Of a stretch of DNA of 57,596 nucleotides, positions 3,366-56,502 are shown piece by piece. Position numbers and translations under genes: made by a program. The stretch is taken from assembly GCA_016935665.1 (NCBI GenBank), contig JAFGQN010000193.1:1-57596 (forward strand), written 5' to 3'. The notes beneath the pieces were generated by a model. It searched no databases. It worked only from the letters and a program-made list of their open reading frames with translations, and was not told the origin of the DNA. This stretch comes from Deltaproteobacteria bacterium (GTDB taxonomy: Bacteria > Myxococcota_A > Polyangia > JAAYKL01). Numbering within the stretch: position 1 is the first letter of the stretch; each line of letters opens with the position of its first letter.

Positions 3366-3812
3366 TCACCCCGGAACAGCGATATACAAAAATGCCAGGC
3401 CCAGAATGCCCACTGTTTCCACGATGCCCATAGCGATGATTAGAAAGGCGAAACCTTTGCCGCTTTCGGCGAGGCAGCGGATGGCGGCGGCGCCGATTTT
3501 GCCCTGCATGAAGGCGCTGAACATTTCGGCCAGTCCCCCCGACAGGCCGATGCTCAAGAGGAGGGCGCCCTCAGCCGCGACAATTTCGGGCGGGGTGCCC
3601 AGCATTTTGCGCATGAGTATCATGGCGTAGAGGGTTTGTGAGATGGGCATTCCTAAAAGGATGATGTAGTTGAAGCTTAAGGGGGCGTCGCTGCGGGCCT
3701 GTTTGGCCCAGGCGCCGGCTGCGGCCTGACCGGCGATGCCGATGCCGATGGCGCTGCCCAGAGCGCCCAGACCCAATGCCAGTACCAGTCCCAGTTGACC
3801 GAGCATTTCCAT
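3366..3812 (-). CDS. ntpK: V-type ATPase subunit K (rotor proteolipid)
   Basis: Membrane rotor subunit of the V-type ATPase, 148 residues, with four transmembrane helices as two fused hairpins (first helix LGLVLALGLGALGSAIGIGI). The ion-carrying glutamate is E132 in GIVETVGILG. The Enterococcus hirae NtpK Na+ ligands have counterparts here: S58 and Q59 in MPISQTLY (Thr64 and Gln65 in hirae), Y62 (Tyr68), Q103 in FMQGK (Gln110) and E132 (Glu139). This pattern predicts Na+ rather than H+ coupling. It is the last gene of the operon and starts three bases after the stop of subunit I. Confidence 0.93.
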   Translation of the reverse strand: MEMLGQLGLVLALGLGALGSAIGIGIAGQAAAGAWAKQARSDAPLSFNYIILLGMPISQTLYAMILMRKMLGTPPEIVAAEGALLLSIGLSGGLAEMFSAFMQGKIGAAAIRCLAESGKGFAFLIIAMGIVETVGILGLAFLYIAVPG

Positions 3813-11965: not shown

Positions 11966-12616
11966 ATGATTTCGCGCAGGAAACCCCTTGCAATCGCATT
12001 GGGTACAATGACGATATTTCTACTGTTCGCGTCCGCCGCACTGCCGCAGCAGGTAGAAACGGGAATATTAAACATTGACTCCATTCCCGGTGGGGCAACG
12101 GTATATGTGGATGGCCGGATTCGAGGTACCACCCCTGTGCTGCTGGAAGTTTTAGCCAATGAACATACCATTATCATTGAGCAACGCGGGTATGAAACAC
12201 ACAAATCAAACATCACAGTAAAAAAAGACAAAGTGGTGCGCACCAAAATCAGACTAACAAGACAAAAACCCAAACCGAACAAAAAGCGCGCACAAACAGC
12301 CTCCATTACACCAAATGCGATTCAGATTAAAGAAAACATCAGAATACATCGCCCCAAAAACAACAGTGCGCCAGGAACCGTTTTTCTGGATACGACACCT
12401 CAGTCTCTCACCGCATCCATTGATGGGTATACCATATCCAAAACAACACCTGTCGCCTTCGATATCCGTCCGGGCATTTATGAACTAAAACTTTTTAATG
12501 ATAAAAACGAAATAGTGTATCAGAAAACGATTTTTGTGCGTTCGGGCAAAACCCTCTCTCTGGATATTATCATACAGAAAAAACGTACAATAGATTACAC
12601 TGATCCGTGGAAGTAA
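11966..12616 (+). CDS. Exported protein with two PEGA domains
   Basis: A 216-residue protein with an N-terminal signal peptide (LAIALGTMTIFLLFASAALP, cleavage likely after the Ala-rich end). The first PEGA domain (about 32-98) reads GILNIDSIPGGATVYVDGR, then GTTPVLLEV and HTIIIEQRGYETH. A basic linker (RQKPKPNKKRAQT) leads to a second, more divergent PEGA-like domain (about 138-205: GTVFLDTTPQSLTASIDGY). PEGA domains are small beta folds on the outside of the membrane, often following kinase transmembrane segments. Here they stand free, so a periplasmic structural or adaptor role is likely. Confidence 0.8.
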   Translation: MISRRKPLAIALGTMTIFLLFASAALPQQVETGILNIDSIPGGATVYVDGRIRGTTPVLLEVLANEHTIIIEQRGYETHKSNITVKKDKVVRTKIRLTRQKPKPNKKRAQTASITPNAIQIKENIRIHRPKNNSAPGTVFLDTTPQSLTASIDGYTISKTTPVAFDIRPGIYELKLFNDKNEIVYQKTIFVRSGKTLSLDIIIQKKRTIDYTDPWK

Positions 12617-26389: not shown

Positions 26390-27643
26390 TTATATATTCA
26401 GCGTTTCGCCATTTTGAAACAGAGCCATCTGGCTTTCAATGTTTGGCAGTTTAACTTCAACGGTAAACCGGCGAATTTTGTAATTTCCCACATCCAGTGG
26501 CTTGCCATCGGCATCGGCTGGGGCATTGGCCAACTCATTGGTGAGCACGCTTCCTGCCGCGCCCCCGCGCTCCTGCAGCTGATCCGTGCGTTCCATGCGA
26601 ACAGCCAGAGAAATGATGGCGGACCGCACATGCTCGGGAAACACGCGTTTATCATTAATATTTCCCGCTGCCGGTATTGGCAAATGTCCGGTACGCGACT
26701 CATTCACAATCGTGTCTGTATCAGAGGGAAGGGTTGTTCCCGCCGCGTTGGTGTAGTAGGCCTGATCGGCGCCCCTGTTTATATCCGGACCACTTTCAGA
26801 AGGATCCACCGCTCGAAACCACACCTGGAAATCCACCACATTTTCCGCAATCACCACCGCTCCCAGACGACTCGTGTTCGAAAGGCCCGAGGTAGGAAGG
26901 GTACTGGCAGTACTGCTGTCATAATTGATAAAATAGCGCATGAGCACCTGTCTGTTTGGAGTGTTTGGCGTGGGGGATTCAACCCGATACATCACGGCCT
27001 GATTGGCGCCAATTTTCACGTTTCTCTCGCCAAACGCCTTGTCAATCAACTCACCACTCATGATGTGAATCGTACACTTCTGACATACGCCATCGCTGCA
27101 CTCCTCTTCCACCGGCGGATCCGCGGCATTCACCTTGGCTTCGTGTGTCTGACCTTTGGCGGTAACCAAATGGGCAAACGCATAATTGCCATCAAATTCC
27201 CTGCGGCACATGCCTTCGCGAAAAGCGGAAAAAATGGTCACTTCGTCGTTATCGGCATCCACCATTCCCTCGTACATGTTGTCCCCAATAAAATTTCCCA
27301 CAAGAATGACCGTATCCGGTCCGGTGCCCCCCGAATTCAGATGGACGATTGGATTGCGGAAGTAGGCCTGATGCATCCCCGCTCCTCCACCTTGCCTGGA
27401 GACCATGGAGTTTTTGTTGTCATCATGCCTCGGATTGGCCGCGTAAAACATTCCTGTGCGCATAAAGTCGAATCGCAGCATATCGATGCCGGCCCGCGCC
27501 GCCTGGGACGCCTCAACAATCATCTGTTCATTCTGCGCCGTCTGGGTCATGGAACGGGTGATCAGTGTCAGCGAGATGGCCGCAATAGAGCCCAGCAACA
27601 GCGCCACCATCATTTCTATCAACGTAAATCCGCGTTGTCTCAT
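26390..27643 (-). CDS. pilW: PilW-like minor pilin
   Basis: A 417-residue prepilin-like protein. The cleavage site and helix are clear: RQRGFTLIEMMVALLLGSIA, with the conserved Glu at position 5 of the mature chain. The head includes RAGIDMLRFDFMRTGMFYAA, a usual PilW feature, and a long variable C-terminal region. It belongs to the initiating complex of minor pilins under the PilY1 tip. Spacing to pilV upstream is 15 bp and to pilX downstream 12 bp. Confidence 0.9.
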   Translation of the reverse strand: MRQRGFTLIEMMVALLLGSIAAISLTLITRSMTQTAQNEQMIVEASQAARAGIDMLRFDFMRTGMFYAANPRHDDNKNSMVSRQGGGAGMHQAYFRNPIVHLNSGGTGPDTVILVGNFIGDNMYEGMVDADNDEVTIFSAFREGMCRREFDGNYAFAHLVTAKGQTHEAKVNAADPPVEEECSDGVCQKCTIHIMSGELIDKAFGERNVKIGANQAVMYRVESPTPNTPNRQVLMRYFINYDSSTASTLPTSGLSNTSRLGAVVIAENVVDFQVWFRAVDPSESGPDINRGADQAYYTNAAGTTLPSDTDTIVNESRTGHLPIPAAGNINDKRVFPEHVRSAIISLAVRMERTDQLQERGGAAGSVLTNELANAPADADGKPLDVGNYKIRRFTVEVKLPNIESQMALFQNGETLNI

Positions 27644-27658
27644 TACATCTCCTGTGGA

Positions 27659-28321
27659 CTAGTCCGGTTCCACCTTGTTGGCAAAATCCCTGGTCAGAAT
27701 CTGTTCCAGCAACAGAGAATGAATATTGGGCTGCACCATGGTCTCACCTTCTGTCGCTGCGGAATCGGTATCTGTCCCCTTGACGAGATGGGTACTGCAG
27801 TCGGCCCAGTTTCCGGCATCCTTCTCCATATATCGCCCTTCTTTGGCCCATGTGATCATCACACTTGCATGAAACAGATTTCCCGGCAGCGCCTTTTCCG
27901 AGCCCGGGCGGACGTCCGGTATAATCCGAAAGTGAATGCAGTATTTGGCCGTGTTGACCGTACTGTAACCAGGGTCGGTCGAATTCCTCAGATACTCGTC
28001 AAATCGAACCGTATCCGATAGCGTTATCCAATTGCCATTGGCATCAAACCCGGATTTAAGCAACGGGAGGTAATTCACACTGGCCGAAGACAGTGGTGGG
28101 TCGTCGGGGGCGTATGCCGATACCTCATTGTGAAGCCAGGTCATGGCGAACTGGGCCAGATTGGCGGCGGCTGTACGTTCTCGACCGAACACCGACGCAT
28201 TCATTGAAACCTTGTTCAGCGCCACCAGTCCCATGGCGGTTACCGAAAATATCACAACCGCAACGAGCACTTCCAGTAAAGAAAATCCAGCCGCGTTTCT
28301 GCATTGACGTTTACTGCACAT
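27659..28321 (-). CDS. pilV: PilV-like minor pilin
   Basis: A 220-residue minor pilin. The leader MCSKRQCRNAAG is followed by FSLLEVLVAVVIFSVTAMGL, the processed N-terminal helix with Glu at position 5, and then a PilV-type continuation (GLVALNKVSMNASVFGRERT). The head is unlike others I recognise. AAAGGAG precedes the start. It is part of the FimT-PilV-PilW-PilX-PilY1 order common to type IVa pilus minor pilin operons. Confidence 0.88.
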   Translation of the reverse strand: MCSKRQCRNAAGFSLLEVLVAVVIFSVTAMGLVALNKVSMNASVFGRERTAAANLAQFAMTWLHNEVSAYAPDDPPLSSASVNYLPLLKSGFDANGNWITLSDTVRFDEYLRNSTDPGYSTVNTAKYCIHFRIIPDVRPGSEKALPGNLFHASVMITWAKEGRYMEKDAGNWADCSTHLVKGTDTDSAATEGETMVQPNIHSLLLEQILTRDFANKVEPD

Positions 28322-28335
28322 CGAAAAATGCTCCT

Positions 28336-29115
28336 TTACTCTCCAGCGCCAATGAGTTTCACATAGGGATGACCACCCGCAGGCACCATCACACGTCTGG
28401 TGACGTCCACTGCGTTGGTCGGCGCCCCGTCTCCAGCGGGACAGGCAGCTGTACCGGAATCAAACCGGTTGAACCGAATATCGGCGCCACTCATCCAGGT
28501 TTTTTTATCCGATGACGGGGTGGCGCCCAACCACCCCACACACGCCCTTTCCCAAACTGCCGTGGTATCCACATCTGTGCCGTCAGTGCAGTCGGTATTT
28601 CCCACCATCCGCTCTCGAATCCACAACTGCCCCGTCCCATTATAGCAAAGCGCGATTGACATGCCCGAGGCGGGTTGTCTCACTACACATGCGCTACCCG
28701 CAACAAGTGCCACGCGAACATCACACATGGCCACACCCGCGTCCACAAATTCGTCAGTAGCCAGATACACTTTTGAATGGATGGGATCGGCAGGTTCCAG
28801 CGTCGCATCAACGCCATCATTCTCTTTAAGGTCGAAGCATCGTTTGCGCACGTTGTCGCTGCAGTCCGCGCCATCCAGCAGATTCACCCACATGGCGTTG
28901 TTTCGAATCTCAACCACAACCGCCTGGCGGCTTTTCATTGCCAATGCTCTGGCATCCGCAATGGTCCGCTGCACCAGATTGGTGGCATCAGAAAGCCTGT
29001 TGCGGCGCTTGATTTCGGTCAGTTTGGGAACTGTGACGGCAGCTAGAATAGCTATCAACAACACGGTTATCATGAGTTCGATAAGTGTATACCCTCGATT
29101 ATACGCTTTTTTCAT
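28336..29115 (-). CDS. fimT: FimT/GspH-type pseudopilin
   Basis: A 259-residue pseudopilin and first gene of the pilus operon. The prepilin motif is NRGYTLIELMITVLLIAILA, followed by AVTVPKLTEIKRRNRLSDAT and LVQRTIADARALAMKSRQAV, typical of GspH/FimT. The C-terminal head has several Cys (DCSDNVRKRCFD; SACVVRQPASG). I chose the ATG at 29115, which has AGGAGC upstream. The open frame continues to 29271 without family resemblance. Confidence 0.88.
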   Translation of the reverse strand: MKKAYNRGYTLIELMITVLLIAILAAVTVPKLTEIKRRNRLSDATNLVQRTIADARALAMKSRQAVVVEIRNNAMWVNLLDGADCSDNVRKRCFDLKENDGVDATLEPADPIHSKVYLATDEFVDAGVAMCDVRVALVAGSACVVRQPASGMSIALCYNGTGQLWIRERMVGNTDCTDGTDVDTTAVWERACVGWLGATPSSDKKTWMSGADIRFNRFDSGTAACPAGDGAPTNAVDVTRRVMVPAGGHPYVKLIGAGE

Positions 29116-29339
29116 TGTTAAAAAATGCTCCTGCAAACGCCAGAATTCCAAAAATGCAATAATTATACCGCAGTGTCGTGAAAGGTACATCCGATGTGGC
29201 TGAGATAAAATTGTCGGCGAAGACACAGCGATAATTTCTTTTAAATCTCTCGATTCATGACTATAAGGCATTTAAAAAGACATGCGAATTTTATGCAGTT
29301 TTTTCATCACTACGCAACTTTTTCATAGCAGGAGACGAT

Positions 29340-30908: not shown

Positions 30909-31751
30909 CTACTGCGATTTCAATGCATTGGGATCATACGTTTTACTGGTTGTTAATATGATTTGGTCAACCTCCAAACCCGCCTCACGCATATACAACT
31001 CAAAAGTGATGATGCCCACTTCGGGAATATCAAGCACGGCGCAGGAATCATTCATCAGGTATCGAATATAATACCATTGTCCTGTAATGCTTTGTTCATG
31101 ATCCCGAAAAGCCAACGCTGATCCAGATGCAATGTGGCCATCTCTGCCATACCATACCGAATCATCACTGCGGCCAGTGTGCGCTGCCCGAACCCAGATG
31201 TACACTGGCTCTGCCTTGACCATCCGAATGGTATATTGCAACACCGGTGCATTTGTCTCGGCAAATACGAGGTCGGCATTGTCTTTGTAACCAATACCCG
31301 ACGGCGTGGCTTTCATCGCACCATGACCTGAATATGCCGCAATATCATATGAGGCTTCCCATGTGCTGCCATCATTACCACTGCGCACATTGGAATAATC
31401 CTCGGCTTCAATAACAACCAGCCCCATCTCCCCAGACGATTGCGTAAAGTCTTCAACATCACTGAAATCCGTCCCCTTTTCGGAATCGTCTTCCGTCCCC
31501 TTTTCGGAATCGTCTTCCGGTGTATCCGAAGCCGTATCGAAATCAGAAAGGTAACTATCCGAGTCCCCGGTATCTTCATCGTCACTGGAATTGGAATCAA
31601 CAGCCTCCGCATTCGAACTGGTATCTCCCACACCAATCGGCTTCTCGTCACTTATCACTTTACTGTCTGTGTCCAGCTCTAAAGACGGCACATCCACCAC
31701 ACAGCCGCACACCATCATCGCTACGGCAAGAAGAATTACGGCCCCCCTCAT
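30909..31751 (-). CDS. Lipoprotein with Asp/Ser-rich stalk and carbohydrate-binding-like domain
   Basis: A 280-residue lipoprotein. The signal peptide ends in a lipobox (AVAMMVCGCVVD). Residues 22-105 are a disordered Asp/Ser/Thr/Glu stalk that includes an exact duplicated 24-bp unit (EDDSEKGT twice). The C-terminal domain (about 110-275) starts VVIEAEDYSNVRSGNDGSTW and has a jelly-roll-like pattern with YIWVRAAHTGRSDDSVWYG. This resembles CBM6/CBM35-type and related glycan-binding modules. No catalytic domain is present. Its ATG shares one base with the stop of the TPR-PEGA gene (TAATG), so it is translationally coupled to a kinase operon. Confidence 0.75.
   Translation of the reverse strand: MRGAVILLAVAMMVCGCVVDVPSLELDTDSKVISDEKPIGVGDTSSNAEAVDSNSSDDEDTGDSDSYLSDFDTASDTPEDDSEKGTEDDSEKGTDFSDVEDFTQSSGEMGLVVIEAEDYSNVRSGNDGSTWEASYDIAAYSGHGAMKATPSGIGYKDNADLVFAETNAPVLQYTIRMVKAEPVYIWVRAAHTGRSDDSVWYGRDGHIASGSALAFRDHEQSITGQWYYIRYLMNDSCAVLDIPEVGIITFELYMREAGLEVDQIILTTSKTYDPNALKSQ
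31471..31518. repeat. Tandem 24-bp repeat inside the lipoprotein stalk
   Basis: Two exact, adjacent 24-bp copies (31471-31494 and 31495-31518) encode two eight-residue units in the Asp/Ser stalk of the lipoprotein. Since the unit is a multiple of three, copy-number change would lengthen or shorten the stalk without breaking the frame. Confidence 0.85.
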
Positions 31752-32797
31752 TAAAACCTCCCCTGCACGCCGATTGTGCTGCGAACGTCCAAAGACACAT
31801 GCAATCGTCGTGCATTCCGTCTACGCAATCGATTGTCGATAATCTTCATTGTCACAGCGCCCGCGGCCAGCAGAGAGGTGACGCCAATAAAAATATTCGT
31901 CATTTTTTTATTGTGAAGCGTTTTGTCGCGCAGTGCCGCGTCTGTGTAATCCGAATCGGTGTAATCAGATTTTGCATTCATTGTTTTCACTCCATAAATC
32001 GCCGTCACAACAAAGCTGGCCATCGCCGCGCCCAATAGTGAATAAAAAGAAATCCGCAATCCTGATGAAGACCACTTCGGGCCAGTTGTGTCCCAGGGAA
32101 GAGTCCCATCAATCGCTTCAGGGGTGTGTGATTCGTTCCCTTTCGATGAAGTAGTTCGTTGAACGGACTCTGCCGACACGAGGGGACCGTGAACGCCGGC
32201 AACAGAAAAGCGCGCGTTGGTGACAGCTCCCGCTTCAACGCGATACTGACGATTCACCATCTGTTGCTTATCCCCACTCACCGTCACGGTATAGTTTCCA
32301 GGAGTCATAAGAACAACCGTTTTCCCGTTGACGGTGCGTCCTTTCTGAACGCCATCCACTTCAACATTACAGTCACCGGGGTGGCAGGAAATGTGAATTT
32401 CTCCCACCAGCATCTTTAACATGGCCAATCGACTGCGCACATCGGCGATGGTCTTTGGATCTTTTTTACAATCCATAGCCAGGTATTTATTATAAATCGC
32501 AATGGCTCGGACGTGTTCTCTCGCATACTCATAACTGTACCCCACATTCACCAGCGCTGCGGGGTGGGGCGCGAGATCATGCGCACGCTGGAACGCAGCT
32601 GCAGCGTCCATATATGCCCCCTCATCGAAAAGACGTTCTCCTCTGGCGAACATCTTTTTTGCAGTCTCCACATCGCTGGCATCGTCAAATTCCACCGACT
32701 CTTTTGAGGGAATATCCGCACAGCGCGCATCTTCCACAACAACTGAAACGAACAGTGTTACCAAAACGACATGACACACTAAAATACGAAACATCAA
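31751..32797 (-). CDS. Exported TPR and PEGA-domain membrane protein
   Basis: A 348-residue protein with a signal peptide (RILVCHVVLVTLFVSVVVED). A TPR-type helical region (about 44-115: AKKMFARGERLFDEGAYMDA; PHPAALVNVGYSYEYARE) is followed by a PEGA-like domain (about 130-200: GEIHISCHPGDCNVEVDGVQ; TVVLMTPGNYTVTVSG). Two membrane segments come near the C-terminus (ISFYSLLGAAMASFVVTAIY; IFIGVTSLLAAGAVTM). It overlaps the upstream kinase gene by four bases (ATGA) and the downstream lipoprotein gene by one. It is probably a periplasmic adaptor of the kinase. Confidence 0.78.
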   Translation of the reverse strand: MMFRILVCHVVLVTLFVSVVVEDARCADIPSKESVEFDDASDVETAKKMFARGERLFDEGAYMDAAAAFQRAHDLAPHPAALVNVGYSYEYAREHVRAIAIYNKYLAMDCKKDPKTIADVRSRLAMLKMLVGEIHISCHPGDCNVEVDGVQKGRTVNGKTVVLMTPGNYTVTVSGDKQQMVNRQYRVEAGAVTNARFSVAGVHGPLVSAESVQRTTSSKGNESHTPEAIDGTLPWDTTGPKWSSSGLRISFYSLLGAAMASFVVTAIYGVKTMNAKSDYTDSDYTDAALRDKTLHNKKMTNIFIGVTSLLAAGAVTMKIIDNRLRRRNARRLHVSLDVRSTIGVQGRF

Positions 32798-34515
32798 TAC
32801 GGATTCCTGTTTAAAACCTGTTTGGTTTGGCTTTTGCCGCTTTTATTCCGGGCTTTTCTTTTTATGGGAGCGGGCATCTTCGATTGCGCTCCGTCGCTTG
32901 TTATTTGATTGGATGTCGAAATCGAACTGCGAGATAATTTGATTTCCAAAGTCTCGCCTTTTTGAGCACGGACTGTATATTTTGCGGTCACATACCCAGA
33001 TGCGCGGGCCTCGACTTCGTATTGTTGCCCGTCATTGGGAAGTCGAAATGCATTCGACGCCACCTCAATCGGAGCGCCTTCCAGTAACAATTCTGTTTCT
33101 GCGGGTTGAAGCGTTACGGGAATGCGAACAACATTCGAAACGCCGCTCGCGTCTCTGTTTTTCGCATCATGCACTGTTTTCCCCATTTGAGAGAATTTAA
33201 TATTGGCGTTTTTTTCTGTTGCAACGCCATCTTCTCCGACACGCTGCACTCCCGTCTCAGGAGACGCAACGGGGTGGCTGCGTCCCCCGTCACTCCCGAC
33301 AAAACCCAATCCATATAGCAACGCCGCTGCCAAACAAAAGACCAGGAAAGCGCCCCCCCCCCATGTCCACATTTTCCATTTTCCACCCGCGACACGCAAC
33401 TGTTTGCTGGTTGGCCGACACAGCACCGTTGTCGACAATTTGGTGACATGATCTGTGGAGCGCGTCAGATAAACAACGTTGTCGTCCGTCGCGACGTCCA
33501 CTTCAACCTGCTGCTGTTTTTGCTTAAATTCCAAAACCTGTTTTTGATGGCTTTCCCGCTCTTCCGCAAACAGAGACTGCATCAAAGGGCCCAACTCCGA
33601 AGCGCCGAATTTCTCACCTGAAGCAGAAATATATTCACGAAGCGCGGTTTCCAGCTCCGACGCCTGCTGATATCTTTCTTTTGGCGAGACCGCCATCGCT
33701 TTGAGAATAATGCATTCAAAATGGCCATCAACCGTTGGTGATAATTTCGATGGGCGCGTCATGTCGCACGTGAGTGTTTTTTTGAGCCGTTCCGCCTCAC
33801 TCTTTCCAGGGAACGGATGTTTTCCAGTGGCGAAGAGATACAAAATCACTCCGAGGGAAAAAATATCTGCCCGACAATCCAGAGGCTCCCCTTTGATTTG
33901 CTCAGGCGAAATGTATCCTATTTTACCTTTCAAATTCCCAGGACTTGTATGCGAAAGTCGATTTTCAGCAAACGCCACGCCAAAATCGATGAGTTTTACC
34001 CATCCATTATACGAAATCAGAATGTTGCTGGGAGAAATGTCCCGATGTACCAGATGCAACGGAGTGCCTTCGTCATCAGTTAAATCATGCACGAATTGAA
34101 GCCCCTGGCATACTTCCGCACAAATCCAGGCTGCCTGAGTGCAGGGAAGCATTATCTCTCGCCGTTTACTCTCTCCAAGCAAATGTCGCAGGCTGTTTCC
34201 ATCCACAAACTCGGCGGCAATAAACAATTGTCCGCGATCCTCCACAATTTCGTATATCTCACCAATATTGGGATGATGAATTCTGGCGGCAATTCGCGCC
34301 TCGTCCAGAAACATATCAACAAATTCCCGTTGCGTGGAAAGATGGGAGTGGATCAGTTTCAGAGTAACAAGCTTTTCAAATCCAGCCATGCCGGACAATC
34401 GGCCCACATATACATTGGCCATTCCACCAACGGCCAAAGGATAAATCACGTCGTATCGGCCAACGCGCTGTCGTTCAAAAGGAGGTGGTGCTTCAGTCTT
34501 GATTTTACGTATCAT
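32794..34515 (-). CDS. Hanks-type serine/threonine kinase with periplasmic PEGA domain
   Basis: A 573-residue membrane kinase. The N-terminal kinase domain (about 20-290) has the Gly-rich loop AVGGMANVYVG, the ATP-binding Lys in VTLKLI, the catalytic loop HRDISPSNILI, the Mg loop IDFGVAF and the APE-region equivalent YISPEQIKGEPLDCRADIFS. The HRDISPSN variant (Ser for the usual Lys) is frequent in myxobacterial kinases. After a linker comes one transmembrane helix (GAFLVFCLAAALLYGLGFVG). Outside it a PEGA-like domain (about 475-545: VTLQPAETELLLEGAPIEVA) and a basic tail follow. It is the first gene of a coupled three-gene operon with a TPR-PEGA protein and a glycan-binding-like lipoprotein. 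Confidence 0.92.
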   Translation of the reverse strand: MIRKIKTEAPPPFERQRVGRYDVIYPLAVGGMANVYVGRLSGMAGFEKLVTLKLIHSHLSTQREFVDMFLDEARIAARIHHPNIGEIYEIVEDRGQLFIAAEFVDGNSLRHLLGESKRREIMLPCTQAAWICAEVCQGLQFVHDLTDDEGTPLHLVHRDISPSNILISYNGWVKLIDFGVAFAENRLSHTSPGNLKGKIGYISPEQIKGEPLDCRADIFSLGVILYLFATGKHPFPGKSEAERLKKTLTCDMTRPSKLSPTVDGHFECIILKAMAVSPKERYQQASELETALREYISASGEKFGASELGPLMQSLFAEERESHQKQVLEFKQKQQQVEVDVATDDNVVYLTRSTDHVTKLSTTVLCRPTSKQLRVAGGKWKMWTWGGGAFLVFCLAAALLYGLGFVGSDGGRSHPVASPETGVQRVGEDGVATEKNANIKFSQMGKTVHDAKNRDASGVSNVVRIPVTLQPAETELLLEGAPIEVASNAFRLPNDGQQYEVEARASGYVTAKYTVRAQKGETLEIKLSRSSISTSNQITSDGAQSKMPAPIKRKARNKSGKSQTKQVLNRNPY

Positions 34516-51885: not shown

Positions 51886-52986
51886 TTAAGGGCCCATGGG
51901 ACCCGGCGTGATGACTTCAAAGGCGCTGGCCGGGACGTCTTTGAGTTCCTGCTCGTCACCATTCCAACCCGGATTTGTTTCTGCCTGGAAATAAAACGCC
52001 GATCCGTTGTCGGCGAGAATCATGCCGTAGCGCTTCATGGCCCGGAGGATAATTTGCGCGGTTGGGTTGAACGAAGATATGTCATAGTCTGCTTTTAGAC
52101 GTACCCGCAACCCCATGGGCGGATGCGATGGCTCGTCACCGCAGCCGCCGGGAACTGCATAGTGAGACGCTGGCGCGACATAGTTGCTACGGGTGCAGGG
52201 CATGGTGAAACGAATGGCGTGACGGATTTCGCCTTCGGTGATTTCACTGTAGCGAATCAGCCCCGCTGCGATGGATAGACCGGCCGCATCGGCGGAGGTC
52301 CAGCCCATGGGGCGCTGGCCAGAGCTGTTTTCACTTAAATCAAATATCGCGCCACAGCCACAATGCCAGCCATCGGACAAATACGTGCAGTTGCCCGACT
52401 CGTACAGCATGCATGTGCCTTCCTGCAGGGTGAGCAGGTGACAGTCGCCATCGCAATTGTAGGCGTCGCCGCCTTCAATCCGCGCGTCGTCCGGCGTGGG
52501 GAAGGGATAGGGACCGGGGTCGCTTTCCTCGGGGTACCAGTCAAAGGATATGGGGCGCATGGGTTCGGTTTCGGGTACGATGTTGATGGGAATTCCCCAT
52601 TCCTGATTGTCCCAGTTGCCAAAATCCGGATGCAGGTTCACATTCCCGGCAAGCGCCAGGACATTGCTGGTCCATGCCGCGTCCACGGAGGCGTTGGAAA
52701 TGTCGCGGTTCCATTCGTCATCGGCCGTAAATATGGTACATCCCGCGATGACCGGCAATGTGGTGTTGCTTCCCGTGCCGGTGTCTGTATCCGCCCCGGT
52801 ATCCACTCCGGAATCACTGTCAACATGGGTGACAGTGTCGTGCGGTGAGCTGGAATCAGCTGTTGTGCCGGAATCTGAAGTCGACGATGTATCAGTGGTG
52901 TCCGGACCATCGCCGGAACCGCCGCTGTCAGAACAACCGAGAACTCCAATTGTCAGAACAATGGCCATTATGCATCTGACTGTCAT
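51886..52986 (-). CDS. Secreted Cys-rich lipoprotein of unknown function
   Basis: A 366-residue lipoprotein with lipobox LTIGVLGCSDS (Cys18), a Ser/Thr/Asp stalk (about 20-75), and a globular domain. The domain begins CTIFTADDEWNRDISNASVD and includes LHPDFGNWDNQEWGIPINIV, then DPGPYPFPTPDDARIEGG. It closes with RPMGWTSADAAGLSIAAGLI, EIRHAIRFTMPC and IILRAMKRYGMILADNGSAF. I recognise this as a recurring secreted family in actinobacteria and deltaproteobacteria without assigned function. The conserved His, Asp and Glu could form an active site, but none is established. GGGAAGC precedes the ATG. Confidence 0.75.
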   Translation of the reverse strand: MTVRCIMAIVLTIGVLGCSDSGGSGDGPDTTDTSSTSDSGTTADSSSPHDTVTHVDSDSGVDTGADTDTGTGSNTTLPVIAGCTIFTADDEWNRDISNASVDAAWTSNVLALAGNVNLHPDFGNWDNQEWGIPINIVPETEPMRPISFDWYPEESDPGPYPFPTPDDARIEGGDAYNCDGDCHLLTLQEGTCMLYESGNCTYLSDGWHCGCGAIFDLSENSSGQRPMGWTSADAAGLSIAAGLIRYSEITEGEIRHAIRFTMPCTRSNYVAPASHYAVPGGCGDEPSHPPMGLRVRLKADYDISSFNPTAQIILRAMKRYGMILADNGSAFYFQAETNPGWNGDEQELKDVPASAFEVITPGPMGP

Positions 52987-55170: not shown

Positions 55171-56502
55171 ATGATAGAACGAATTGGCAACTGCAGAATT
55201 ATCGAAGAAGTCGGCGCTGGCGGCATGGCCGTGGTGTACAAGGCCATTCAGGAGCCTCTGGGCAGAACGGTTGGTATCAAGGCGCTAAAATCTTCCATTG
55301 CAGTTGAAACCCAGTTCGCCGAGCGATTTGAACGGGAAGCCCGTTTTATGGCATCGCTTCAGCAGGAAAATATCATCAACGTCTATGATTTCATCAAATA
55401 TGGTGGCACGATGTTCATCGTGATGGAGTACGTGGAAGGGATTGACCTGTACGATTTGCTCGACAAATTTAAAAAAATTCCGGTGGAAGCGGCCACCATT
55501 ATCGCGCTGCAAGTGGCCCGGGCACTGAATCACGCACACTTTCGCGGTATTATTCACCGGGACATCAAACCCGCCAATGTGATGATTTCCAAACGCGGTG
55601 ATGTAAAACTGATGGACTTTGGCATTGCCCGTGATGAAACCCTCTCCGATTTGACCGAAACAGGGACCGGGTTGGGAACGCCTTCCTATATGTCCCCGGA
55701 ACAGATTCTGGGAGACAAACTCGACCAGCGCACCGATATCTGGTCTCTGGGCGTCGTGTTCTACCAGATGCTGTGTGGTAAAAAGCCGTTCATTGAAGAT
55801 GCCAAACGATCTGTGCTGCAGAAAATCCGGCTGGACAGGTACGTACCGGTACGCAAACTCAATTCCAGGGTCCCACGGGTTCTTGAGCGCATCCTGGGAC
55901 GCTGTATGGAAAAACAGCCGGCAGATAGATATCCCTCCATGCAGGCGCTCATCCACGATCTCGAAGATTTTCTCGCTTCGCGTGTGGTGGTGAATTACAA
56001 CGCGTGGATGGTGAAATACCTTTTGGAATCCAATGTTGTATCAGATGACGAGGCCAGCGGTATCCTGACCGCCGGGGCACTGCGGGAAGGGGGAAAAGTG
56101 GTGCGCGAAGATCGCCGTGCCCTGCGCAATATCGGCGTGGTGCATGCGGCCGTGCTGGCGGTTTTCCTGTTTGCGGGAATTGTGATTCAGCTCGCTTCCC
56201 AGGAACCGTCCTATACCAGTGAAAAAGTGGTCGCGGTGACCAGTCCGGCGGACATGGGGCATTTGAAAGTAGTTGCCGTGCCATGGGCCAAGGTACTCGT
56301 TGATAACGAGGAGGTGGCCCTCACGCCGATTGCAGCGCCCATATCTTTGCCTGCCGGCAAACATTTCGTTGAGTTAATCAATCCGTATTTCAAACCCAGA
56401 AAGCTGGAGATAGATATTCAACCCAAACAGACACTCGAAATAGTCGAAGAATTGGCGCTGGATGCAGGAGCGCCGCCTGAAAATCCACACGAAAAAAAAT
56501 AA
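55171..56502 (+). CDS. Hanks-type serine/threonine kinase with periplasmic PEGA domain
   Basis: A 443-residue membrane kinase. The kinase domain (about 5-270) has GAGGMAVVYKA (Gly-rich loop), VGIKALK with the ATP Lys, the catalytic loop IIHRDIKPANVMI with the normal Lys, MDFGIARDETL, and GTPSYMSPEQILGDKLDQRT. One transmembrane helix (VVHAAVLAVFLFAGIVIQLA) leads to an extracellular PEGA domain (about 365-435: HLKVVAVPWAKVLVDNEEVA; GKHFVELINPYFKPRKLEID). PEGA is thought to bind partners or the wall. The stop shares one base with the ATG of the LysM gene, so the pair is coupled. Start at 55171 follows AAGGAACGGC. Confidence 0.93.
   Translation: MIERIGNCRIIEEVGAGGMAVVYKAIQEPLGRTVGIKALKSSIAVETQFAERFEREARFMASLQQENIINVYDFIKYGGTMFIVMEYVEGIDLYDLLDKFKKIPVEAATIIALQVARALNHAHFRGIIHRDIKPANVMISKRGDVKLMDFGIARDETLSDLTETGTGLGTPSYMSPEQILGDKLDQRTDIWSLGVVFYQMLCGKKPFIEDAKRSVLQKIRLDRYVPVRKLNSRVPRVLERILGRCMEKQPADRYPSMQALIHDLEDFLASRVVVNYNAWMVKYLLESNVVSDDEASGILTAGALREGGKVVREDRRALRNIGVVHAAVLAVFLFAGIVIQLASQEPSYTSEKVVAVTSPADMGHLKVVAVPWAKVLVDNEEVALTPIAAPISLPAGKHFVELINPYFKPRKLEIDIQPKQTLEIVEELALDAGAPPENPHEKK

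Follow-up and report, generated by a model that had tools for sequence, protein, structure and literature searches.

The locus described here poses the question of what a Ser/Thr protein kinase, an adaptor with TPR and PEGA domains and a stalked lipoprotein do together when they are encoded one behind the other. The three genes lie in a stretch of 57,596 nucleotides from a Deltaproteobacteria bacterium (contig JAFGQN010000193.1 of assembly GCA_016935665.1), here called the window, where they are real, contiguous genes of the minus strand running from 34515 down to 30909. A first-pass annotation, made from the sequence, had read them as a signalling chain from lipoprotein through adaptor to kinase. 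We find that the operon belongs to a family of cassettes in which the adaptor and the base of the lipoprotein form a chassis for exchangeable heads. That such a cassette works as a receptor is our tentative reading.

The kinase (573 residues; 32794–34515) has a cytoplasmic kinase domain, one membrane helix, a PEGA-like domain, a basic linker and the C-terminal residues NPY. The adaptor (347 residues; 31751–32794) is composed of a signal peptide, a TPR domain (residues 39–129), a PEGA domain (131–197), a linker and a two-helix hairpin (245–328), and ends in GRF. The lipoprotein (280 residues; 30909–31751) has the lipobox VCG-C17, followed by a base segment, an Asp/Ser stalk and a head resembling the carbohydrate-binding modules (CBM) of families 35 and 6. 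This largely fits the three parts as first described, except that the PEGA-like domain of the kinase gives no Pfam match and that the adaptor is more than a soluble protein of the periplasm. The kinase and adaptor genes meet in TGATG, an overlap of one base (stop TGA 32796–32794, ATG 32794–32792), and not in the four-base ATGA overlap reported earlier, which would need a TTG at 32797. The one-base overlap TAATG between the adaptor and lipoprotein genes (gap −1), also reported, is read directly in the sequence.

The window operon has the features that define a cassette: a gene for a TPR-PEGA-hairpin protein, the gap of −1 and a lipoprotein with a hydrophobic base segment. Searching with an adaptor profile yields 42 copies in the sampled DNA of the source genome (8.2 Mb, 249 contigs), and relatives of the adaptor are present in 92 of the 96 genomes of the class. 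An Asp-stalk lipoprotein, starting −60 to +150 bp downstream, directly follows 29 of the 42 adaptors but only 11 of 427 other genes (2.6%; Fisher p 3e-27), this background rate coming from about 0.7 Mb of sampled source-genome contigs, part of which were chosen around adaptors. The same linkage is found for 27 of 39 adaptors in two genomes of the same genus. Four further source-genome proteins (at L063, L074, L076 and L080) escaped the lipobox pattern, yet by eye they are stalked lipoproteins, and the adaptor of L098 has a short, stalkless lipoprotein behind it.

For ten of the 42 source-genome adaptors the gene immediately upstream encodes a kinase of the same subfamily, and nine of these ten kinase–adaptor pairs show the full three-part order (one judged by eye). 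At loci elsewhere in the class and phylum, a kinase precedes 22 of 61 adaptors; a lipoprotein, mostly without an Asp stalk, lies behind 12 of the 22 pairs, compared with 3 of 59 other genes. A search for the three-gene order in other genomes had been suggested as a check, and the order does recur: six or more further families of the class have it. A double cassette is present at L061 (G007:C206, 2730–9181), with kinase, adaptor, stalked lipoprotein, adaptor and stalked lipoprotein in a row. The trio of the window is not one conserved orthologous operon: no full-length orthologue of its lipoprotein was found beside an adaptor, and two relatives of it lie in sigma-factor cassettes, which are considered below.

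Lipoproteins encoded beside an adaptor are marked by the segment directly behind the lipid cysteine, in the window CVVDVPSLELD (31671–31703). We counted a base segment as present when at least three of the residues FILMVWY occur in positions +1 to +12 after this cysteine; the window lipoprotein has five. By this measure, which was chosen after viewing the sequences of all sets and used with adjacency widened to 400 bp, the base segment is present in 28 of 31 source-genome lipoproteins beside an adaptor versus 10 of 48 others (p 6e-10; area under the curve (AUC) 0.89), and in 20 of 23 versus 1 of 10 in the two genomes of the same genus (AUC 0.92). The lipoproteins beside an adaptor start with hydrophobic and acidic residues, for example CQLFTDLDGYYW, CLDFDIP, CTAFLDD and the CVVDVPSLEL of the window. 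Stalked lipoproteins away from adaptors mostly start like CSDSGG or CGGDSD, and the window itself holds an example of this adaptor-free kind, an Asp/Thr-stalk lipoprotein without a base segment (CSDSGGSG; 51886–52986, minus strand). The sequence of the base tracks the divergence of the adaptor, also where the heads are unrelated (rho 0.22; 1 of 500 permutations over all pairs was as high). Separately, the lipoprotein CQLITDFDGYLYGDG of L107 (G000:C27, minus strand, start near 3791 in reverse-strand coordinates) has a base segment and no adjoining adaptor was found for it in the sampled DNA; it may mark an orphan or divergent adaptor.

Kinases of the cassettes carry a mark at their C-terminus: Pro followed by Y, F, W or L and then at most six residues to the end. 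In the source genome this Pro-aromatic tail is found in 8 of 10 adaptor-paired kinases versus 2 of 25 unpaired ones (p 7e-5). Among paired kinases elsewhere it is present in all 16 from the family and in 9 of 14 from the class, with endings such as LDPDDPWK and IDADNPYAH in distant representatives; the strict form of the tail occurs in 1 of 65 unpaired kinases from other genomes. The tail of the window kinase is the NPY at 32797–32805, and the counts for paired and unpaired kinases make it a candidate dock for the adaptor TPR. A search of the contigs with the kinase alignment gave 89 kinase matches, most of them without an adaptor and nine paired with one, and the superfamily to which these kinases belong is thus not generally tied to the cassette. 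A kinase at L331 (G000:C201:22500-26500) ends in IDYADPWGE, a Pro-aromatic tail, and no adjoining adaptor was found.

The heads of the lipoproteins are not constant. Behind the adaptors we find LDLa/Notch, leucine-rich repeats (LRR) with Ig-like domains, beta-helix, Lcl_C, PD40, LVIVD with EGF, lamin-tail-like, RCC1 and Big_2 heads. The clearest case is a pair of cassettes, L274 and L275, in a genome of the same genus (G001), whose DNA is 88% identical over 3088 bp, from the kinase through the first part of the lipoprotein stalk; 464 of 518 aligned kinase residues are identical. The identity ends inside the stalk region, beyond which one lipoprotein has an RCC1-like head and the other an unrelated one. 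Two sister adaptors of the source genome, L095 and L097, are likewise followed by an LRR head and an Lcl_C head, and unrelated heads are found in 27 of 39 pairs of relatively similar adaptors. The head is thus an exchangeable module on a constant chassis, and not, as first proposed, a carbohydrate-type domain that is a fixed part of the system.

Our preferred reading, to which we would give not quite an even chance, is that the operon encodes an exchangeable-head receptor in which the lipoprotein base is held by the adaptor, the TPR domain of the adaptor grips the kinase tail and the kinase reports inward. The lipidated cysteine would anchor the lipoprotein, and the long acidic stalk would carry the recognition head, possibly exposed at the cell surface. 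The membrane-proximal base segment would be held by the dedicated TPR-PEGA adaptor, itself anchored in the envelope by its helical hairpin. In cassettes with a kinase, the TPR domain would grip the Pro-aromatic tail, extended into the periplasm behind the PEGA-like domain of the kinase; this supposes that the kinase is oriented across the membrane according to the usual topology of such kinases. A ligand or a mechanical load at the head would then alter the complex of base and adaptor, and through it the kinase, which would phosphorylate cytoplasmic targets. The direction of signalling, from lipoprotein to adaptor to kinase, would be that suggested in the first-pass annotation, to which the tail motif and the base segment add concrete candidate points of contact. 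It is also possible, and we hold this more loosely, that dozens of such one-adaptor-one-lipoprotein receptors, with a constant base and readily exchanged heads, form a genome-wide repertoire, an unnamed modular class directed at many targets.

Several observations weigh against this receptor. The largest is that 32 of the 42 source-genome adaptors have no adjoining kinase, and the adaptor–lipoprotein pair must therefore be able to act without a linked one. A downstream lipoprotein is not made more likely by a kinase in front of the adaptor (8 of 10 versus 21 of 32; p 0.47), and in other genera of the family a stalked lipoprotein lies beside only 3 of 14 kinase–adaptor pairs. The tests of the base segment are descriptive because the measure was set with all sets in view, and linked inheritance is another possible source of the co-variation between base and adaptor. 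Within its family the window adaptor is a divergent member, on a long end branch in a quick tree.

The main rival, which we consider rather unlikely, is that the cassette is a display or sorting module. The adaptor would then be a dedicated chaperone or anchor that recognizes the base segment and delivers the lipoprotein to the right membrane or the surface, or holds it there, and the kinase, where present, would regulate this instead of being signalled to. The constant unit is indeed the adaptor with the lipoprotein and not the kinase, the feature common to the lipoproteins lies behind the lipid cysteine, the usual site of lipoprotein sorting signals, and the heads are diverse binding or adhesive folds. 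However, 48 stalked lipoproteins of the source genome have no such partner, so that display does not need an adaptor, and display or sorting alone leaves the Pro-aromatic tail of the paired kinases unexplained.

The head of the window lipoprotein suggests another alternative. Its Asp/Ser/Glu-rich stalk, identified from the sequence and a stalk score, spans about residues 28–105 (31437–31670), and the head follows at 30927–31427. The head matches PF17829 (GH115_C) at 25.1 bits (cut-off 24.1), and its profile matches the CBM35 of CsxA (2vzp) with an E value of 9e-5. An AlphaFold2 model of the head, with a predicted local distance difference test score (pLDDT) of 84, gives Foldseek matches to CBM35/CBM6 modules (E about 1e-6, probability 1.0). 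The head is thus predicted to have the CBM35/CBM6 beta-sandwich fold, in agreement with the original description of a lipoprotein with an Asp stalk and a CBM-like domain, and it presumably binds a polysaccharide. The first-pass annotation had set two outcomes against itself, a gene order found in no other genome and a head unrelated to carbohydrate binding; since the order recurs and the predicted fold is a carbohydrate-binding one, neither is what we find. The head shares its fold and a weak profile similarity with known modules (CsxA CBM35, 2vzp; Clostridium thermocellum CBM35, 2w47) but differs from them in standing free on a lipoprotein stalk, with no catalytic domain.

Two relatives of the window lipoprotein, one from the genus and one from the family, adjoin genes for an extracytoplasmic function (ECF) sigma factor and a protein with FecR and TPR domains, at L043 (G002:C86, 1226–3912) and L044 (G010:C306, 1086–5455). 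In L044 a polysaccharide-lyase-14 lipoprotein precedes them. Heads of this kind are thus also plugged into another signalling kit, a second type of signalling cassette in which stalked lipoproteins take part, and this gives a hint that the window cassette would signal too. With 2 each, both relatives score low on the base-segment measure. The window operon resembles ECF sigma/FecR-type systems in that relatives of its lipoprotein are encoded beside them in G002 and G010, and differs from them in having no sigma factor or FecR gene.

From the CBM35-like head one could suppose that the lipoprotein serves in adhesion or polysaccharide capture, binding prey, matrix or another polysaccharide for attachment or degradation, with the kinase and adaptor an ordinary signalling pair that shares the operon by chance. 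The relatives of the head domain, which lie mostly in long open frames, that is, in large proteins, and the polysaccharide-lyase lipoprotein of L044 would agree with such a role. We regard it as improbable, as lipoproteins with unrelated heads are systematically linked to an adaptor, base and adaptor co-vary, and a conserved chassis is found with a swapped head. It is more improbable still that there is no functional unit at all, tandem and dispersed block duplication keeping unrelated proteins together while the base segment hitch-hikes: cassettes do duplicate as blocks (L274/L275, and neighbouring copies on L061 and L067), but the adaptors are very divergent, at about 20–30% identity, their linkage recurs in other families, and replacement of the head leaves the adjoining base segment in place.

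The putative receptor kinase of the window has an intact catalytic domain (PF00069, 125 bits, E 4e-36), with K53, HRD 157–159 (D159), N164 and DFG 177–179 (D177), motifs that are conserved across the subfamily. The predicted membrane helix, the hydrophobic stretch GGGAFLVFCLAAALLYGLGFV, covers about residues 385–405 (33301–33363). An external PEGA domain had been assigned to the kinase earlier; there is no Pfam PEGA match in the window copy, but such matches occur in 3 of 14 kinases of the subfamily, and residues 463–534 (32914–33129) align with the adaptor PEGA in a comparison of the kinase and adaptor families by hhalign (87%, E 4e-6, 70 columns). The kinase was also considered as a PASTA kinase of the PknB/Stk1 type, with which it has in common a cytoplasmic kinase domain, a single membrane helix and an external sensor part. 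This assignment was rejected: the NF033483 profile reaches 242 bits against a cut-off of 450 and its match ends at residue 443, short of a full-length match that includes the extracellular PASTA repeats, and no PASTA domain was matched by Pfam in the window kinase. In place of PASTA the kinase has the PEGA-like domain and the Pro-aromatic tail, and its partners are an adaptor and a lipoprotein.

Ten consecutive G residues (33353–33362) lie in the reading frame of the kinase, at the start of the membrane helix, the first codons of which fall within this run. The 769 kb of source-genome sequence that was sampled contains two runs of at least nine G or C. Slippage here would separate the kinase domain from the membrane, the PEGA-like domain and the tail, and the run is a candidate phase-variation site or a weak spot of the assembly. 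Poly-G is not a common feature of the cassettes, as the other run of ten, in L098, falls between genes. The source genome has about 63 kinases; one of them, also in the window (55198–56448), is a Ser/Thr kinase with a PEGA match that gives the strongest kinase match of the genome and ends in ENPHEKK.

The AlphaFold2 model of the adaptor (mean pLDDT 80) comprises the signal peptide, the TPR domain, a PEGA sandwich, a loose linker and two long hydrophobic helices. The TPR domain (32408–32680) is recognized from the model and from profile and fold matches, the TPR_16 match being below the Pfam cut-off. These matches include the TPR domains of CHIP, Hop, Sgt2 and PEX5, which bind C-terminal peptides, a likeness that speaks for the proposed docking of the kinase tail. 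A carboxylate clamp like that of CHIP was considered, and an EEVD-type clamp is left unclaimed because only the Asn of the second repeat appears, by eye, to be conserved. The PEGA domain (32204–32404), modelled as a beta sandwich with high pLDDT, scores 17.8 bits with PF08308 against a cut-off of 20.8, which other members of the adaptor family exceed. A small protein encoded elsewhere in the window (12059–12583) matches PEGA twice, and one of these matches, at 60.9 bits, is the highest-scoring in the genome.

The earlier description of the adaptor as a periplasmic TPR-PEGA protein thus holds for its two domains, and less well for its placement, as the modelled C-terminal helices (residues 245–280 and 286–328; 31811–32062) form a hydrophobic hairpin. 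The loop between the helices is acidic and contains two Cys in 66 of 151 adaptors. After the second helix comes a K/R-rich stretch (31754–31810 in the window), and 143 of 153 adaptors end in F or W; F347 is invariant in an alignment of 55 rows. Such a loop and tail do not sit well with a protein that simply crosses the membrane twice once its signal peptide has been cleaved. The quick tree places the window adaptor in a clade linked to kinases, where 18 of 23 rows have one (Shimodaira–Hasegawa-like approximate likelihood ratio test 97), and a second kinase-linked clade has a kinase in 6 of 9 rows.

The small membrane protein encoded next to the operon (30854–30450) had been thought a possible fourth part. 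We reject this, because a copy 75% identical to it in the same genus sits in an unrelated neighbourhood that has no cassette. Further along, at 26390–29271, the products of three genes on the minus strand begin like type IV pilins (GFTLIEMM, GFSLLEVL and GYTLIELM) and are probably minor pseudopilins.

Each part of the proposed receptor is of a known kind, and cross-envelope receptors with a lipoprotein sensor are a known kind too. One such system is Rcs, the components of which include the outer-membrane lipoprotein RcsF, the inner-membrane protein IgaA, and RcsC/RcsD (PMC9907809, PMC5978795). In this three-tier system a signal from the envelope travels from a lipoprotein by way of a membrane protein to a kinase relay, and by analogy the lipoprotein of the window operon would control its kinase through a membrane protein; the likeness is one of working, and no homology is claimed. 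Rcs is a phosphorelay based on a two-component system, with one fixed sensor, whereas the cassette has a Ser/Thr kinase and dozens of exchangeable heads. We know of no TPR or PEGA domain in the Rcs system. In the open-access literature we found no published description of the cassette, its two marks or the swapping of heads, and none of the open-access papers that mention the PEGA domain concerns, by its title, these bacteria.

If the proposed reading is true, hundreds of 'hypothetical' proteins in Myxococcota could be interpreted by one general rule: the adaptor gene marks the lipoprotein, the segment behind the cysteine marks the partner, and the Pro-aromatic tail picks out the kinase of the cassette. 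The reading would also account for the inputs to some of the kinases in the large sets of the myxobacterial type, and the cassettes would be a natural example of receptor diversification through the swapping of heads on a fixed chassis.

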